In this document: positions 11,386 through 25,690 of the stretch, piece by piece | How the letters are laid out: every line of letters begins with the position of its first letter | Numbering within the stretch: position 1 is the first letter of the stretch | Source of the DNA: a virus | Virus record (IMG/VR): IMGVR_UViG_3300033145_000512 | Location: 1-29,960 of that record | Direction: 5' to 3' (one strand) | Length of the DNA: 29,960 nt | Position numbers and translations under genes: made by a program | Notes under the pieces: generated by a model | The model's database searches: none | Told to the model about the DNA's origin: nothing | What the model saw: the letters and a program-made list of their open reading frames with translations, nothing else

Positions 11386-12783
11386 ATGACCCTCGCAGCT
11401 CTTCGGAATACCGAACAAATCGACGCCGCGGCCATCCCGACCATCTATGAGCCGGTTTGCGCGACTGACATCCTTTACGCCGGCGGCATGGTCTGCCTCA
11501 CTGCGGCCGGCCTGGCGGCTCCCGCTGCCTCTGTTGCCGGAATGACCGCAGTGGTGGGACGCGGCGAGCGCACCGTGGACAACACCGCAGCCGGCACCCC
11601 GACCATCAAGGTCATGCCCGGCCAGTTCAAGTACGACAACAACGGCGACTCGATTGTTGCCGCTGACGTGGGCTCGCTCTGCTACGCCGTTGACGACGAG
11701 GCCGTAGACATCTCCAACGCCGGTGGCCGACCGATTGCCGGTCTCATCACCCGCGTCGACGGTGATGGCGTCGTGTTCCAAACGCAGTTCCACATTGCTG
11801 GCATCGTCGCCGCAGTTGGCGCAGCGGCCGGTGGCGATTCTGCCCCCGTCTATCACGTGGACGTCGCGTCGACCGCCGACGTGGCCAACCTGGCGGCCTT
11901 CGTGGTGACCCACGACGGAATCGTGATGGTCGAAGGCGAGCGTTTCCTTGCGAAGAACCAGGCAGCGCCAGCCGAGAACGGCATCTATGTCGTCGGTGTG
12001 GTCGCTGGTACCGCTCCGCTGACGCGTGCCTTGGACTTCGATGATGGCTCCGAGTTCATCAGCAACAGCGTGGTTGTCGTCGAGCGCGGCACCGCCAACG
12101 CCGACACCGCTTGGGGCGTCACCACGGATGGCGACATTGTGGTTGGGACCACCGGCACCGTGTGGGCTGAGGTTGCTTTCGGCTACGGCGCCGCGGGCGC
12201 CATGGTCGACCAGACCATCGCTGCCGATGACGCCGGTGTGGCGCTGACTGCCGCCCGCATCGACCACAATCACAACTTCACCGCAGCCGCCGGTGCTGAT
12301 ACCCACCTGACGGGTGCAGAAGGCGCCGCGGCATCGTTCTCCCGCAGCGACCACACTCACGTGGTGCTCGGCGTCCCGACCGTGCTGCGAACCGTCACCC
12401 TCACCAGTGCCGACCTGACGGCCGCTGGCGTGGCGCAGACCATCAACATCGGCGCTGTGCTTTTGCAGACGGACATCGTTCTCGGCTATCGCATCGACCT
12501 GGTCGACGCCTTCGACAATGGTGCCATGGCGAACATCGCGCTTGAGGTTGGGCACAGCAACGACCCGGACGCCTACGAAGACGGCTTCGACGTGTTCACC
12601 GGTTCCGCGCTTGAGGGTGACGGGCTCACCTTCACCACGCCCGGCCCCGGAATCGGCTTGCCAGCGTTCGATGGCACCTCGGTTGGCCAGTGCGTCGCCG
12701 TGTTCACCGCCAACGCTGACCAGTTGCTGAACTGCACCAACGGCGAACTGCAAATCGACATCATCGGTTGTTCCCTGGTCTAG
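11386..12783 (+). CDS. Head decoration protein fused to fibre-type domains (465 aa)
   Basis: AGGAG at about 11370-11374 precedes the ATG. Residues 1-135 look like a small capsid cement/decoration protein ('YAGGMVCLTAAGLAAPA', 'MTAVVGRGERTVDNTA', then 'GRPIAGLITRVDGDGVV'). Residues 158-263 are a fibre module ('VEGERFLAKNQAAPAENGIY'). Residues about 290-326 carry 'DHNHNF' and 'RSDHTH', His motifs common in phage fibres. The last 140 residues form another predicted beta domain. I read it as a decoration protein with an outward appendage, but a short tail-fibre role is possible. It lies in the head operon, which favours the head. Confidence 0.7.
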   Translation: MTLAALRNTEQIDAAAIPTIYEPVCATDILYAGGMVCLTAAGLAAPAASVAGMTAVVGRGERTVDNTAAGTPTIKVMPGQFKYDNNGDSIVAADVGSLCYAVDDEAVDISNAGGRPIAGLITRVDGDGVVFQTQFHIAGIVAAVGAAAGGDSAPVYHVDVASTADVANLAAFVVTHDGIVMVEGERFLAKNQAAPAENGIYVVGVVAGTAPLTRALDFDDGSEFISNSVVVVERGTANADTAWGVTTDGDIVVGTTGTVWAEVAFGYGAAGAMVDQTIAADDAGVALTAARIDHNHNFTAAAGADTHLTGAEGAAASFSRSDHTHVVLGVPTVLRTVTLTSADLTAAGVAQTINIGAVLLQTDIVLGYRIDLVDAFDNGAMANIALEVGHSNDPDAYEDGFDVFTGSALEGDGLTFTTPGPGIGLPAFDGTSVGQCVAVFTANADQLLNCTNGELQIDIIGCSLV

Positions 12784-14064: not shown

Positions 14065-15495
14065 ATGCCCATCCCCGGCCAAACTCTGACCATCCTCGAC
14101 CCCGGCCTAGGGCTGGTCGAGCCCGCCGTCAACACGCCGCTTGTCATTGGCGTTTCCTCAACTGGCACCGCTGACACCCTGGTGAGTGTGTCCTCCATGG
14201 CGCAAGCCCGCGCCGAGTGGGGGCAGGGCCCGTTGCCCGAGGAAGTGTGCCGTTGCCTGAGCGAGGGTGGCGGACCAGTGCTCGGCATGCGAACCGATGC
14301 CACCACGGCAGGCGCCGCGGGCGCAGTGACGCCGGGCGGCGGCAACGTCGGAACCGGAACCGTCACCGTGGCTGGCGCCGCGTTCGACCTCTACGAGGTG
14401 ATGCTTGAGGTGACCACGACCGGCGACGCCGGCATCGGCGCCTTCATCTATTCGCTCGACGATGGCCGCACCTACTCCGAGGAGCTGACCATTCCGGTCG
14501 GCTTGACCTACACCATCCCGGACACGAACCTCGTGCTGACCTTCGTTCCCGGCGCTGGCCCGGTGGAGTGGTCCGATGGTGACACCCATTGGTTTGACTG
14601 CACCGCCCCGATGTACACGACCGCCGACTTGGCTACCGCCATCACGGCGCTGACTGCCGACACGACCGAGTGGGCCTTCATGATTGCCACCGGCACCCAT
14701 GCCACGGGCGCCGCGGCTGCCACGATGTTCGGCGCGCTGGAAACGCATATGGCCACTTTCGCCTCCGCGTTCCGCTACGTGCGCTGCATCATGGACGGCG
14801 GCGACGAGGCGGGAGCCGCGGTCAATACCGCGCTGGACGCCGTGAGTGATAACCGAATCCTCGTTGCCTATCGCACCGCCGACACGACGAGCGCCAAGGC
14901 CCACGCTGGATTCGGCGCCCCGAAGATTCCGCTTGCCCACAACATCGGCGCGCGGGCTCACGCCTCGCTCATCTCGACGGACTTGGCCCGCGTGGCCTCC
15001 GGTTCGCTGACCGGCGTGCTTGCGATTGAGCACGATGAGCGGCTGACCGAAATTATGGACAGCCACCGTATCAGCACGGCGCGTACGTTCATTGGCCGCC
15101 CAGGATTCTACTTCACCAATGGCCGCCTCAAGTCCGCCCCCGGCAGTGACTTCCGCTATTGGCAGCACGGCCGCATCATGGACCTTGCATGCCGCACGGT
15201 CTACTTGCAGCAGCAAGTCTTCATCGGCATGGGCATCCGCACCAACGCGACTGGCACCATTGACGAGCGCGACGCCGTCCGCCTGGAGACGATTGTCCGC
15301 GAGGCGCTCAACGAGCAGCTGCTGCGGCCCAGCAATGCCGAGGGCGTTTCCGGTCACGTGTCGGCGCTGAATTACACGATTGACCGTACCAACAACGTGG
15401 AGACCACCGAGACGCTTCTGAGCGACGTGGCCATCCGGCCCCTCGGCTACGCCAAGTTCATCACCACGACGCTCGGCTACAGCTTGGCCGTCTAG
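14065..15495 (+). CDS. Contractile tail sheath protein, Mu gpL-like (DUF2586), 476 aa
   Basis: The sheath contracts to drive the tube through the host envelope. The protein starts 'MPIPGQTLTILDPGLG' and has the sheath core with 'AYRTADTTSAKAHAG', 'AHNIGARAHASLISTDLARV', 'TFIGRPGFYFTNGRLKS', 'YWQHGRIMDLACRTVYLQQQ' and the C-terminal 'VRPLGYAKFI'-like strand ('AIRPLGYAKFITTTLGY'). Residues about 88-190 form an inserted beta domain that probably faces outward. The length is normal for the family. It identifies the phage as a myovirus. Spacing to the tube gene is eight bases. Confidence 0.93.
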   Translation: MPIPGQTLTILDPGLGLVEPAVNTPLVIGVSSTGTADTLVSVSSMAQARAEWGQGPLPEEVCRCLSEGGGPVLGMRTDATTAGAAGAVTPGGGNVGTGTVTVAGAAFDLYEVMLEVTTTGDAGIGAFIYSLDDGRTYSEELTIPVGLTYTIPDTNLVLTFVPGAGPVEWSDGDTHWFDCTAPMYTTADLATAITALTADTTEWAFMIATGTHATGAAAATMFGALETHMATFASAFRYVRCIMDGGDEAGAAVNTALDAVSDNRILVAYRTADTTSAKAHAGFGAPKIPLAHNIGARAHASLISTDLARVASGSLTGVLAIEHDERLTEIMDSHRISTARTFIGRPGFYFTNGRLKSAPGSDFRYWQHGRIMDLACRTVYLQQQVFIGMGIRTNATGTIDERDAVRLETIVREALNEQLLRPSNAEGVSGHVSALNYTIDRTNNVETTETLLSDVAIRPLGYAKFITTTLGYSLAV

Positions 15496-15503
15496 GAGCA
15501 ACC

Positions 15504-15971
15504 ATGGCACTCACCTATCCGCTCATCAACGGCGTCAAGTTCGACTGGGCCACCATCGAAATCACCCTTGGCAGTGCCGGCATCTTCATCGGCATCACGG
15601 AACTGACCTACAGCGACAGCAACGACAAGGGCATCGTCCGCGGCACCGGCGTCGAGAAGCTTGCTCGCACCAAGGGAGAATACGACTCCGAGGGCAGCCT
15701 GACGATGTACAAGAAGGACTTTTCCGACTTCATCGCTGCGCTGACCAACGATGGCGAAACCGGCTACTATGATACGCCCTTTGACATCACCGTGATGTAC
15801 AGCGCGCCCGGTGGCGATGGCACCGTGACCGATCGCCTCATCGGCTGTGAGCTGAAGTCCACCGAGGGCGGCGGCTCGCAGGGCACCGACCCGTCAGCCG
15901 TGACGTTCGACCTGGACATCATGCACCTGGAGCTTGATGGCATCTTGCCTTTCACCAACATGCTGGTCTGA
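15504..15971 (+). CDS. Tail tube protein (155 aa)
   Basis: It directly follows the sheath gene with AGGAG seven bases upstream of the ATG. The beta-rich sequence includes 'KFDWATIEITLG', 'ITELTYSDSNDKGIVRGTG', 'GSLTMYKKDFSDFIAAL' and 'LIGCELKSTEGG', the pattern of Mu gpM/P2-type tube proteins. The length of 155 is typical. It forms the inner tube of stacked hexamers around the tape measure. Confidence 0.88.
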   Translation: MALTYPLINGVKFDWATIEITLGSAGIFIGITELTYSDSNDKGIVRGTGVEKLARTKGEYDSEGSLTMYKKDFSDFIAALTNDGETGYYDTPFDITVMYSAPGGDGTVTDRLIGCELKSTEGGGSQGTDPSAVTFDLDIMHLELDGILPFTNMLV

Positions 15972-16004: not shown

Positions 16005-16340
16005 GTGCCAAAGACCGAGACGACCGGAACCGAAGCCGAGCAACTCGACGCGCTTGCCAAAGAGCATGGTGAGCTGCACATCTACCGCACGCCGCACGGT
16101 GTGCTTGCTCTCAAGGCGCCCAGCCCGGGGGACTTCCAACGGTTCACCGACAAGCTGACGAGCGACAAGGGCAGCAAGTATGCAACCATGCGGGAGATCG
16201 TTCTCGCCTGTCGCGCGTACCCCGACCGCGAGGCGGCGCTGGAATTGGTCAAGCGGTACCCCGGCTTGGTGCTCCAGGCGGGCACCGCAATCAATGAACT
16301 GGCCGGCACCGAGTTTGAGGCCGAAGTAAAAAAAGGGTAG
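16005..16340 (+). CDS. Tail assembly chaperone, short (zero-frame) form (111 aa)
   Basis: A GTG start (16005) gives a 111-residue helical protein between tube and tape measure genes, the classical site for tail assembly chaperones, which bind the tape measure until the tube is built. It has 'IYRTPHGVLALKAPSPGDFQ' and 'YATMREIVLACRAYP'. Near its end the slippery A_AAA_AAA occurs two codons before the stop, giving a longer frameshifted form. Confidence 0.85.
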   Translation: MPKTETTGTEAEQLDALAKEHGELHIYRTPHGVLALKAPSPGDFQRFTDKLTSDKGSKYATMREIVLACRAYPDREAALELVKRYPGLVLQAGTAINELAGTEFEAEVKKG

Positions 16341-16522
16341 AAGGATGGCATAGCGCCCAGCGGGACCTTTGGAAGGCCGCTCGGGCGCTATTGGCGTTTC
16401 AGCGCTGCGAGTCAACCGACGCCGGTGGGCCCACGGAGCTGGCGATTGAGGGCGCGCTACTCATTGCGGAGCAGCACGACACCATCCGAGCATTCGGGAA
16501 AGCGTATCTGAAGACGAAGTGA
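16005..16522 (+). CDS. Tail assembly chaperone, -1 frameshift fusion (about 172 aa)
   Basis: The zero frame reads gta-aaa-aaa-ggg-tag at 16326-16340. A -1 slip on A_AAA_AAA (16328-16334) continues with agg-gta-gaa-gga-tgg and stays open for 62 codons to the TGA at 16520-16522, three bases before the tape measure start. The extension includes 'LWKAARALLAFQRC' and 'AIEGALLIAEQHDTIRAFGK', an ordinary coding composition. No separate start would make this segment alone. Lambda G/GT and Mu-like phages use the same scheme. The fused form is thought to bridge chaperone and tape measure. Confidence 0.85.
16328..16334 (+). other. -1 ribosomal frameshift slippery heptamer A_AAA_AAA
   Basis: Seven A bases are phased as A AAA AAA in the chaperone frame, the most slip-prone bacterial heptamer type. 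GAGG (16317-16320) lies a few bases upstream and could act as an internal Shine-Dalgarno stimulator. A strong stem-loop follows from 16351. The zero-frame stop is at 16338-16340. Confidence 0.85.
16351..16390 (+). other. Stem-loop downstream of the slippery site
   Basis: TAGCGCCC (16351-16358) pairs fully with GGGCGCTA (16383-16390). Inside, AGCGG (16359-16363) pairs with CCGCT (16377-16381), leaving C16382 bulged. Further in, CCTT (16366-16369) pairs with AAGG (16373-16376) around TGG. Together this makes 17 base pairs with two small bulges. Such structures stall ribosomes and stimulate -1 slippage. The gap from the slippery site (16 bases) is longer than the usual 5-9. Confidence 0.7.
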
Positions 16523-16525
16523 CCC

Positions 16526-18403
16526 ATGGCCAATTCAGCTGAATACGTAGTCAAACTCACCGACAAGGTGAGCGGACCTGCGAAAAAAGCCATGGCTGGG
16601 GTTGAGAAACTCACCGCATCCACCGTCAGATTCAACAAGGCGGGGCGAAGGGTAGACGCCGTAACAGGGAAATTCGTCAAGATTGGCGCAGCGGCTCAGA
16701 CCGCCGGGATTAGATTCAACAAGGCCGGTCGTGCAGTGGACGCCGTTACCGGCAAGTTCGTTAGTATGGGAGGCGGCGCCGGCCAAGCGGCCGTTGGGGT
16801 TAACAAACTAGGCGGCGGCATCGGAGCAATGCTGTCTAAGCTGGCGGCAATCGGCTTCGTGGTTGGCATCGCCCAGCGGGCCTTGGCGCTATTGCAGCAA
16901 GGCGTGGTGGCGCTAGCATCGGCGTTCATCAAATCGATAGCGGCCGCCGAATCGCTCCAGTTCTCCCTCACCCGCTTCCTTGGCAGTGGCTCCAAAGCCA
17001 CAGCTGCGCTCAAAAGGGTGAGCAACATAGCCAACACGCTCGGGCTTGACTTCCAAACCGCGGCGGGCAACTTCAAAAACTTCATCTCAGCGGGCTTCAC
17101 CGAGCTGGAATCCGAGAACCTGCTGAAATTCAAGGCCGACCTGTTGGCCCTTGGCGACGGCAGCGACACGGCGCGGCAGCGAATCGAGGAAGCCTTCGTC
17201 CAAGTCGAAAAGGCGATGGCCACCGGGCGCATTGAGGCGGATCAGTTCAACTCGATTCTGGCAAACCTGCCCGTCACGAAGATGCAGGTGCTGCAAAAGC
17301 TGGCTGACAAGACCGGGCAGAGTGTAGAGGCGCTCGCCAAAATGGACGTCACCAAACTCCCGGTCAAGGCGCTGATGCAGGCGTTCCAAGAGGCGACGCT
17401 TGCCGCAACGAACACGGGCAAGCTTGGCGATGCAGCGATGCAAAAGATGTTCTCCACCGTGAGCGGCGCGGCGGGCTTCATCAAGACGCGGTTGGTCAAC
17501 GTCCTAGACGACCTGGCTCGCCGCGTTGGCCCCGCCATCGGCGCCAAACTGCTGCCGGTGTTCGAAAAGCTCATCACCTTTATGCAGTCGCCCGCCTTCG
17601 GCGACTTCATCACGAATATCGCAGACAAGATTGTCGACGCGCTGGACTCGGCGATCGACTCGGCGATCGAATTCATCGAGATGTTCGACACTGACGATCC
17701 GTCGCTCATCAAGGACCTGGCCGTCACGTTCTGGGAAGTCCACGCTGCGGTCAGCGCCGTCACCGACGTGTTTGGCATGGTGAAGGCCGCCATCGCCGCG
17801 ACCTTCCCGCCGTCAAGCATCGTCGTTCAGGTGCTCCGACTCATGGCACAGGTGTGGCTCGTCGTCGCCAAGGCCATCCTGGGCGTCGTCAGCATCATCA
17901 CCGGCGCGCTCGGCCAAGCGCTGTCCTTCGTCATCGAGAAGATCGCGTGGCTAGTGGAAACGATCACCGGTATTGAGATTGACACGTCCAGCGTAGGGTC
18001 AAGCATCATCAGTGGTATCGTGAGCGGCATCCTGGCCGGCGCAAGCGCCGTGGTCGAAGCGCTCGGCGGTGTCGTGGACGCTGCCATCTCTTCTGTCAAG
18101 TCCAAGCTCGGCATCGCTTCCCCGTCCAAGGTGTTCGCCGGCATCGGCAAGATGACCGCCGTGGGTTACGCGCAAGGCGTGGAAGCCGAGGGCCCGACCG
18201 TTGCCGCAGCGTCCGCCGGCATGGTCACGCCGAAGGCCCCAGCGGGCGGCGGACCGGTCACCGTGAACCAAACGAACAACAGCGACATCACGGTCAACGA
18301 GGCCGAGTCGGCGTCAGCCACAGCCAAGGAAGTCAAGAAGCAACAGGCGCTCGCATTCGCTGACGCCATGGAACGGCTGGCACTGGAGATGGGCACGGTA
18401 TGA
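16526..18403 (+). CDS. Tail tape measure protein (625 aa)
   Basis: This long helical protein sets tail length and fills the tube; by the usual 1.5 angstrom per residue it predicts a tail of about 90-95 nm (inference). It has a duplicated N-terminal unit ('FNKAGR.VDAVTGKFV' at residues 34-51 and 62-79), hydrophobic segments around 95-132 and 430-460, and a tape-measure core with 'VEKAMATGRIEADQFNSIL' and 'LAKMDVTKLPVKALMQAF'. The C-terminus is a charged helix. It starts three bases after the frameshift product and ends in an ATGA overlap. Confidence 0.92.
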   Translation: MANSAEYVVKLTDKVSGPAKKAMAGVEKLTASTVRFNKAGRRVDAVTGKFVKIGAAAQTAGIRFNKAGRAVDAVTGKFVSMGGGAGQAAVGVNKLGGGIGAMLSKLAAIGFVVGIAQRALALLQQGVVALASAFIKSIAAAESLQFSLTRFLGSGSKATAALKRVSNIANTLGLDFQTAAGNFKNFISAGFTELESENLLKFKADLLALGDGSDTARQRIEEAFVQVEKAMATGRIEADQFNSILANLPVTKMQVLQKLADKTGQSVEALAKMDVTKLPVKALMQAFQEATLAATNTGKLGDAAMQKMFSTVSGAAGFIKTRLVNVLDDLARRVGPAIGAKLLPVFEKLITFMQSPAFGDFITNIADKIVDALDSAIDSAIEFIEMFDTDDPSLIKDLAVTFWEVHAAVSAVTDVFGMVKAAIAATFPPSSIVVQVLRLMAQVWLVVAKAILGVVSIITGALGQALSFVIEKIAWLVETITGIEIDTSSVGSSIISGIVSGILAGASAVVEALGGVVDAAISSVKSKLGIASPSKVFAGIGKMTAVGYAQGVEAEGPTVAAASAGMVTPKAPAGGGPVTVNQTNNSDITVNEAESASATAKEVKKQQALAFADAMERLALEMGTV

Positions 18404-23440: not shown

Positions 23441-25690
23441 ATGACGAACTGGATCAGAGACCTTCTTGGCCAACGACTGCACCGCGACGGCACCGAGTTG
23501 CTGCCGACCAAGAAGGATTGGAACTTCGTCGGCGGGCTCAACGCGTCGTACAATTCCGCCACCGATCGGGTTGACATCACGCTAGCGGATGGCGGCAAGG
23601 ATTGGCAGGAGTCGTGCCGCGTCGCCACCACAGTCAACCTCGTCGCGACCCGCACCGGCAACACGCTGACCGCGACCGGCAACGGCAACATCAACACGCT
23701 CGGCGGCATTGACACCATCAACACCATCGCGCTGAATGACCGCGTGCTGGTCAAGAATCAGGCTATCGGCGCTGACAACGGCATCTTCATCTTCACCGAC
23801 CTTGGCACCGTGGGCACGCCGTGGGTTCAGGAGCGCGACATCCTCGCAGACGAGACCGGGGAAATCACTCCCGGCATGCGGACGGTCATCGAAGAGGGCG
23901 CCGCCAGTCAGCACTTTGTCTACCAATGCACCAACACCGGCACCGTGACGATGAACGCAACGGCGCTGACGTTCGCCACAGCGGGCTCGTTGCTCGCCTT
24001 GGTCACGCAGATCACAAGCGGAGCGGTCAACGCCACCGGTGCAACCGCAAACGCCATCCTGCAAGCCGGCGCCCCCACGGTCGGCGGTGCATGGGAAACG
24101 GCGCTCAAACTCGGCACGACGCCCGCGACGGCTGGAGACATCCGCGGCCACGACACGGTTACTTTCACCAAGTGGGGCACCGGTCCTGTCGTCGTGCCAA
24201 TTATCGAAGGGCACACGAACGACGATGTGTCATTCGGCCTCGGAACAGCAGCCGGCGCCAATCCGCCAAACATAAACGTCGGAGCAAATTCTGGAATTCT
24301 GAGCTACATCAACGGTAACGTCAGAATGGTTCAGGCCGACGCCTATCTGGAGTTGGGCCAGGCCAGTGTCAGATTCGAGGAGTCTGTCGCGTCGCCGGCA
24401 ATTACCCACCGCGACGACGCCACGCCCGGCGTCAGCGGCGACCTGATGACCTGGGAAGCGCAAGGCGTCACCGATCCCGCCGGCGCCGCAACGTCCGGCG
24501 ACAGTCTCATTCGCGGCGGACGTGGCACCGTTCACGGAGGAAACCTCGACGGAAACGTCGCCGTTCACGAGCAATGCGGCAACTATCAGAGCGGCGAGGA
24601 AGTCGTCTTCATCTCGGACGCTGTGACGGCTCCCGTTGCTGCGGCTGCGGCCGGGGCGTTTTTGTGGTCGGAGGGGGCGCTGCTGCATGCGTACCATTAC
24701 GCCACGCCGGCGACCGGTTATGCGCGGTTCGGCCTGGTTGCTGGTAGCGGAGTCGGAGTCAGTGCCGCATCCCAGGGACACATCCGGCTTCAGGACGATG
24801 GTGCGATCATTGGGCGCCGCTCCAACGACGCGGGCGACCGTTCAATGCTCTGGATTCTTACGGATAATGTCTATTTCGGCGGGCAATTCGGCACTGCCAC
24901 TCGCCCCGCGGACATCATCATCGACGCCCAGACCGATGTTCTGCTTCAGGTTGCGAGCAACAACATCCTGTCCGTTTCAGCGTCCGTTATTGAATTCGGC
25001 CTACCGACCGCCAGGTTTGACGTTGCAGTTGTTTCCCCGTCACTGGGGCAGGAATTGGATCCGGCCGCAGGCGTAACGGGCGACGACCTGACAGCCGAGG
25101 CGCAGGGCGTCTCTGACCCCGCGGGCAATGCGGACGCTGGCGATTTTGGAATCACAGGCGGAAAAGGCACCGTCCACGCGAACAACCTCGACGGAAACGT
25201 CTGGGTCCACACCGCGCCCGGCGGCCCCGGTTGGAACGCGATGGAGATGGGCGTCTTCGTCGGGGACTGCGTCACCCCGCCGGCGGGAAACCCCGCAGCG
25301 GGCGGCTTCCTGTTCTCCAACTTCGAAGGCGTCACCGGTCTGCTCGGTTGGCACAGCCCCGACGGCGCAACGTCCACGGTCGGCCCGGCCATCTATCGCA
25401 AGCGCACCGTCGTCAACTTCGGAATGACGCCGTACGCGGTGGCCACCACTGACTATCTGCTCGGCGTCACGACCGCGGGCGGCGCGTTGCAGATCAACTT
25501 GCCAGCGGCAGCCGGCATGACGGACCGGCATCTATTCATCAAGGACGAAGGTGGCGTTGCGGGCGGCGCTGCCATCACGATTGACGCCAACGGCGGCGAG
25601 TTCATCGACGGCCAGTTGACCGCGATTTTGAACGCCAACTACGCGTCGATTCACCTCTACTGCGACGGCGTCGGCTGGTTCATCTACTAG
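23441..25690 (+). CDS. Large tail fibre protein (749 aa)
   Basis: This is the largest gene here. Residues 1-50 are a possible baseplate-binding start. About 57-180 is the fibre module with 'NDRVLVKNQAIGADNGIFIF'. About 315-420 and 530-640 are two diverged copies of one domain, sharing 'AQGV.DPAG' and 'GTVH..NLDGNV.VH'. The last 85 residues ('TTDYLLGVTTAGGALQINLP', then 'IDANGGEFIDG' and 'GVGWFIY') are a very common fibre C-terminal beta domain. It probably forms trimeric fibres binding the host surface. No chaperone or intramolecular peptidase motif was seen. Confidence 0.85.
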   Translation: MTNWIRDLLGQRLHRDGTELLPTKKDWNFVGGLNASYNSATDRVDITLADGGKDWQESCRVATTVNLVATRTGNTLTATGNGNINTLGGIDTINTIALNDRVLVKNQAIGADNGIFIFTDLGTVGTPWVQERDILADETGEITPGMRTVIEEGAASQHFVYQCTNTGTVTMNATALTFATAGSLLALVTQITSGAVNATGATANAILQAGAPTVGGAWETALKLGTTPATAGDIRGHDTVTFTKWGTGPVVVPIIEGHTNDDVSFGLGTAAGANPPNINVGANSGILSYINGNVRMVQADAYLELGQASVRFEESVASPAITHRDDATPGVSGDLMTWEAQGVTDPAGAATSGDSLIRGGRGTVHGGNLDGNVAVHEQCGNYQSGEEVVFISDAVTAPVAAAAAGAFLWSEGALLHAYHYATPATGYARFGLVAGSGVGVSAASQGHIRLQDDGAIIGRRSNDAGDRSMLWILTDNVYFGGQFGTATRPADIIIDAQTDVLLQVASNNILSVSASVIEFGLPTARFDVAVVSPSLGQELDPAAGVTGDDLTAEAQGVSDPAGNADAGDFGITGGKGTVHANNLDGNVWVHTAPGGPGWNAMEMGVFVGDCVTPPAGNPAAGGFLFSNFEGVTGLLGWHSPDGATSTVGPAIYRKRTVVNFGMTPYAVATTDYLLGVTTAGGALQINLPAAAGMTDRHLFIKDEGGVAGGAAITIDANGGEFIDGQLTAILNANYASIHLYCDGVGWFIY

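Follow-up and report, generated by a model that had tools for sequence, protein, structure and literature searches.

The tail region of the analysed window (the whole stretch of 29,960 bases, with a GC content of 63.9%) contained, in order, the genes for a DUF2586 sheath, a tube, a putative chaperone and a tape measure protein, the chaperone gene lying between those for the tube and the tape measure (Table 1). The zero frame of the putative chaperone gene (product G) opened with GTG at 16005 and ran for 111 codons to a TAG at 16338-16340. Its last codons, GTA AAA AAA GGG TAG, placed a run of seven A in the phase A_AAA_AAA, and no other run of seven A or T occurred in the 29,960 bases. The first base of the TAG lay 4 bases, and its last base 6 bases, past this heptamer. 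The -1 frame was open from 16319 to 16522, which gives an extension (T) of 62 codons counted from 16334, with its stop codon at 16520-16522 and the ATG of the tape measure gene at 16526. The original prediction had described the phased heptamer, a zero-frame stop six bases further on and a 62-codon -1 extension ending three bases before the tape measure gene, and all three were present as claimed.

Table 1. Features of the tail region and of the putative frameshift site (positions in the window).
Feature	Position	Strand	Evidence
Tail sheath, DUF2586, PHROG 907	14065..15495	+	Pfam PF10758 E 3e-30; phrog_907 E 3e-24
Tail tube protein	15504..15971	+	phrog_4579 tail protein; 58-61% identity to L002, L003, L004, L020, L021
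Putative tail assembly chaperone G, 111 aa, read in the zero frame from GTG to TAG	16005..16340	+	ORF; homologues 39-62%; AlphaFold model
SD-like GAGG	16317..16320	+	same spacing in 8/8 distinct near-family sequences
Slippery heptamer A_AAA_AAA	16328..16334	+	no other A7/T7 run among the 29,960 bases
Slip-region core A_AAA_GGG_TAG	16331..16340	+	A_AAA_GGR_TAR in 8/8 distinct sequences
-1-frame extension T, 62 codons + TGA	16334..16522	+	frame open from 16319; identity to relatives; -1-frame third-position substitutions
Complete downstream structure as predicted, weak lower stem included, from 8 nt past the heptamer	16343..16399	+	minimum-energy fold, -32.8 kcal/mol
Inner 17-pair hairpin	16351..16390	+	-25.8 kcal/mol, 40 nt
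Tail tape measure protein TMP_3	16526..18403	+	PF20155 E 4e-15; phrog_58; start 3 nt past the T stop codon

Neither G nor T of the window had a match in Pfam, and among the family members the only Pfam match was to DUF6848, found in 7 of 8 with a best E of 1.6e-5. The AlphaFold model of G (pLDDT 84) had its best PDB matches, ahead of unrelated chains, in Geobacillus RBSTP2171 (3fgx, Z 10.9), Bacillus YqbN (3klu, Z 5.8) and the HK97 tail chaperone (2ob9, Z 5.4). The nearest solved structure, 3fgx, is of a protein uncharacterised at its release and shared 22% identity with G; YqbN has a similar fold at a very low identity (11%). The Z values of YqbN and 2ob9 are of a size that may reflect a common arrangement, and the match to the named chaperone, with its middling Z, is supportive rather than decisive. 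Taken with gene order and homology, the model identifies the predicted zero-frame product as a probable G-type tail assembly chaperone.

Relatives were recovered by alignments and with the tube protein as query; the chaperone query alone returned none among viral contigs, searches of genome contigs returned none, and a plasmid search with the sheath gave no matches. The near family comprised ten related IMG/VR contigs, and eight distinct sequences when the window is included. Group A (L030, L032, L034 and L031, L033) shared 62% identity with the window in G and read GT(G/A) AAA AAA GGG TAG, while group B (L002, L003, L004, L020, L021) shared 39-45% and read CGA AAA GG(G/A) TA(G/A). An open -1 frame in related phages had been named as the point on which the proposal could fail, and the T extension was found in the same -1 frame in all ten contigs. 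Identity between T of the window and T of its relatives was 55-61%, and the block AARALLAFQ was invariant. Substitutions at the first, second and third -1-frame codon positions numbered 3/2/17 between L030 and L031, 10/2/18 between L003 and L004, and 19/16/33 between the window and L030; this concentration at third positions indicates that the extension is translated.

The slip element common to the eight distinct sequences was A_AAA_GGR_TAR (8/8), and the A7 heptamer was not conserved, the run being A6 in L030 and A4 in all five group B contigs. As far as these sequences go, the full A7 is optional in the slip signal of this chaperone family. IS elements use A_AAA_AAA as one of their two most frequent heptamers (PMC4066793). 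In E. coli this heptamer is much less shift-prone than A_AAA_AAG (PMC5009743), and the A_AAA tetramer is there the weakest of six active ones and requires a strong stimulator (PMC4066793). The perhaps high shift rate that had been suggested for this site was not supported, given the modest heptamer and the presence of just the weak A_AAA in group B.

A programmed -1 frameshift producing G and a G-T fusion, the tail assembly chaperone of a contractile-tailed phage, very probably accounts for these sequences, and the shift originally proposed in the tail chaperone gene is well supported by the ten contigs, synteny, coding-type substitutions and fold. Three other explanations were weighed against it. 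RNA polymerase could slip on the A7 and add one A to some transcripts, whose normal translation would give the fusion; the run is a candidate for such slippage, and the avoidance of A7/T7 runs by E. coli genes may have this cause (PMC4066793). The same A7 in a metagenome contig is also error-prone, and a true A8 would fuse the two frames, in which case the frame break would be a sequencing or assembly error. Both explanations are opposed by the frame arrangement being kept with A4 (CGA AAA GGG in group B) or A6 (L030). In addition, polymerase slippage in the bacterial cases that a review describes occurs on runs of about nine (PMC5009743), and the same break recurs in ten related viral contigs, most of them with shorter A runs. 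Polymerase slippage is accordingly very unlikely, and a homopolymer error scarcely credible.

G and T might instead be two separately initiated proteins, as suggested by the two CDS given for them in the GenBank records of the phages MMP7, Riverbug, Mx4 and Mushu. However, ATG, GTG and TTG were all absent from the -1 frame of the window ahead of codon 19 of T, a codon within the AARALLAFQ block; the full T domain can thus not arise by separate initiation. No start codon for T was conserved in the relatives, and conservation began at the slip site itself. Separate initiation is thus highly improbable, less so than an error in the contig and more so than polymerase slippage.

An SD-like GAGG had been proposed as a possible aid to the shift. 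It lay 7 nt 5' of the heptamer and 10 nt 5' of the A_AAA core, and was fixed exactly 10 nt before A_AAA in 8 of 8 distinct sequences; published distances for SD-like elements stimulating -1 shifts are 9-14 nt (PMC5009743). The 10-nt spacing thus fits a -1 stimulator, but GAGG also encodes a conserved glutamate, so that its invariance does not by itself prove a role.

Downstream of the slip site, the 17-pair nested stem-loop described from 16351 was confirmed, with pairs 16351-58/16383-90 (8 bp), 16359-63/16377-81 (5 bp) and 16366-69/16373-76 (4 bp). Only 11 of 29,920 segments of 40 nt were at least as stable, at 4 places including the hairpin's own, and the chance of such a stable segment starting in a given 25-nt stretch was 0.4%. 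The minimum-energy fold of 16335-16400 (shuffle z -3.3) added a predicted lower stem, pairing 16343-47 with 16395-99 and 16349-50 with 16392-93. The 16-base spacer given in the original prediction is probably not real: this weak lower stem was likely overlooked, and the spacer would then be 8 nt. Structural spacers for -1 shifts are 5-9 nt, and a lower part of a structure that goes unrecognised is, as a review warns, counted as spacer (PMC5009743).

In the relatives, a fold occurred in the same place and started about 5 nt after AAA. Group B possessed an 11-bp stem from 5 nt past AAA together with an inner stem, with 97% of cells pairing and two-sided changes in 3 of 20 pairs; the group B helix arms also showed an excess of unchanged codons that is only suggestive (p = 0.075). 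Group A folded at the same place in a different pairing register. The best local structure was compared with that of synonymous recodings preserving the T peptide, which gave p = 0.05 for the window, p < 0.004 for L030, p = 0.007 for L031, p = 0.01 for L003 and p = 0.03-0.07 for L004, L020 and L021. The downstream structure in every lineage was thus more stable than most synonymous recodings, and a downstream stem probably belongs to the family's shift signal. For the window's own stem, 5-13% of recodings matched its stability, and with another segment and codon pool its p value was 0.13, unremarkable among coding segments; as part of the signal this predicted hairpin is marginal once the peptide is fixed, and not proven. 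The window's better heptamer may relax the need for a well-placed stem.

Covariance of the stem in related phages, put forward earlier as a check, was slight: a stable hairpin was found in each lineage, with the two-sided changes within group B, but the pairs were not conserved between lineages. No strict covariation was detected across the three lineages, whose pairing register differs. A single stem conserved across lineages was rejected, the consensus structure of all eight sequences being poor (-10.7 kcal/mol), and Rfam had no family at this site.

The slip site of phage lambda is G_GGA_AAG. The window resembles lambda in having the gene between tube and tape measure, a -1 shift predicted close to where G ends, a T domain read in the -1 frame and a putative G-type chaperone, and differs in its slip sequence (A_AAA_AAA / A_AAA_GGR), in the presence of an SD-like element and a stem, and in its contractile-tail module with a DUF2586 sheath; moreover, neither Pfam nor PHROGs gave a match to lambda-type chaperone families. 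The dnaX cassette of E. coli, which shifts at A_AAA_AAG with about 50% efficiency and has its stop in the new frame, shares with the window an A-rich slip site, an upstream SD-like element and a downstream stem-loop, whereas the stop in the window is in the zero frame. The IS1- and IS3-family motifs also include the A_AAA_AAA heptamer and the A_AAA tetramer, with strong stimulators needed (PMC4066793), but in transposase fusions rather than tail proteins. The lambda G/G-T frameshift (Levin 1993; Xu, Hendrix and Duda 2004, 2013, 2014, summarised in PMC5009743) gives a G:G-T ratio of about 30:1 (PMC5009743).

On the frameshift model, most ribosomes would stop at 16338 and release G, while a fraction would slip one base back on A_AAA_AAA, or alternatively on the final A_AAA that precedes GGG, presumably aided by pairing of the upstream GAGG with 16S rRNA and by the downstream stem-loop. 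The slip would yield a fusion protein, G-T, about 172 aa long, in which, by analogy with lambda, G may coat the tape measure and T may recruit tube subunits. The G-T shift is an ordinary, well-known mechanism among tailed phages, and the contractile-tailed group concerned here is poorly described.

More distant relatives (MMP7, Riverbug, Mx4, Peternella and Mushu) had a sheath, tube, chaperone and tape measure order identical to that of the window. A -1 extension was associated with other motifs in Myxococcus phage Mx4 (GAA AAA AAA GAC), Winogradskyella phage Peternella_1 (A_AAA_AAG) and Mushu (A_AAT_TTG). Mx4, in which G and T are annotated as two genes, read GTC GAA AAA AAA GAC CTC TGA (A8; L025:3260-3490) with a very stable downstream fold of -41 kcal/mol over 80 nt, and the extension of Peternella_1 (L026:3203-3487) was unannotated and overlapped the tape measure start. 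In two contigs (L043 and L044) the sole evident slip site for the -1 extension was U_UUC, which in L043 (2460-2640) read CTT TTC GAA near the zero-frame stop. In Meiothermus phages MMP7 and MMP17, related contigs and Thermus phage Riverbug, a homologous T lay in the +1 (= -2) frame at TTT_C (L007:3260-3310, L028:2760-2810, L008:3250-3330 and equivalent places in L013 to L019). The motif there was GAW TTT CGS CCG CTC TAR, or CGA TTT CTG in Riverbug, preceded by GAGGAG.

Within a single family of homologous G-T genes the predicted direction of the shift was therefore seen to change; that directions are mixed among tailed phages was already known (PMC5009743). One tentative reading, which we consider possible though on balance doubtful, is that the signal has been rebuilt repeatedly in this family, with selection preserving the G:G-T ratio through changes of slip site, stem and even direction. 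In the window a weak lower stem would then accompany a stronger heptamer, in group B a long stem 5 nt away would accompany a weak A_AAA tetramer, and the Meiothermus and Thermus phages would use a +1 (or -2) shift at TTT_C. Literature on DUF2586 phages, Meiothermus phages and Mx4, mostly without subscription papers and hence weak evidence of absence, gave no link to this frameshift. The comparison provides a firm G/G-T annotation for the little-described DUF2586-sheath phages, for which several GenBank records list two genes or miss T, and relatives with interchangeable slip sites, stems and directions form a ready-made set for testing how phages keep the chaperone ratio constant.

Two minor observations concern other proteins of the window. 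The N-terminus of the tape measure protein (16628-16770) contained a duplicated segment, RFNKAGRxVDAVTGKFV, encoded by two 59-nt copies 84 nt apart and 75% identical. The structural proteins encoded at 11386-12783 and 23441-25690 both matched phrog_11518, 27782 and 30390, which are tail-fibre/virion PHROG families, suggesting that a head protein and a tail protein may share a surface domain.
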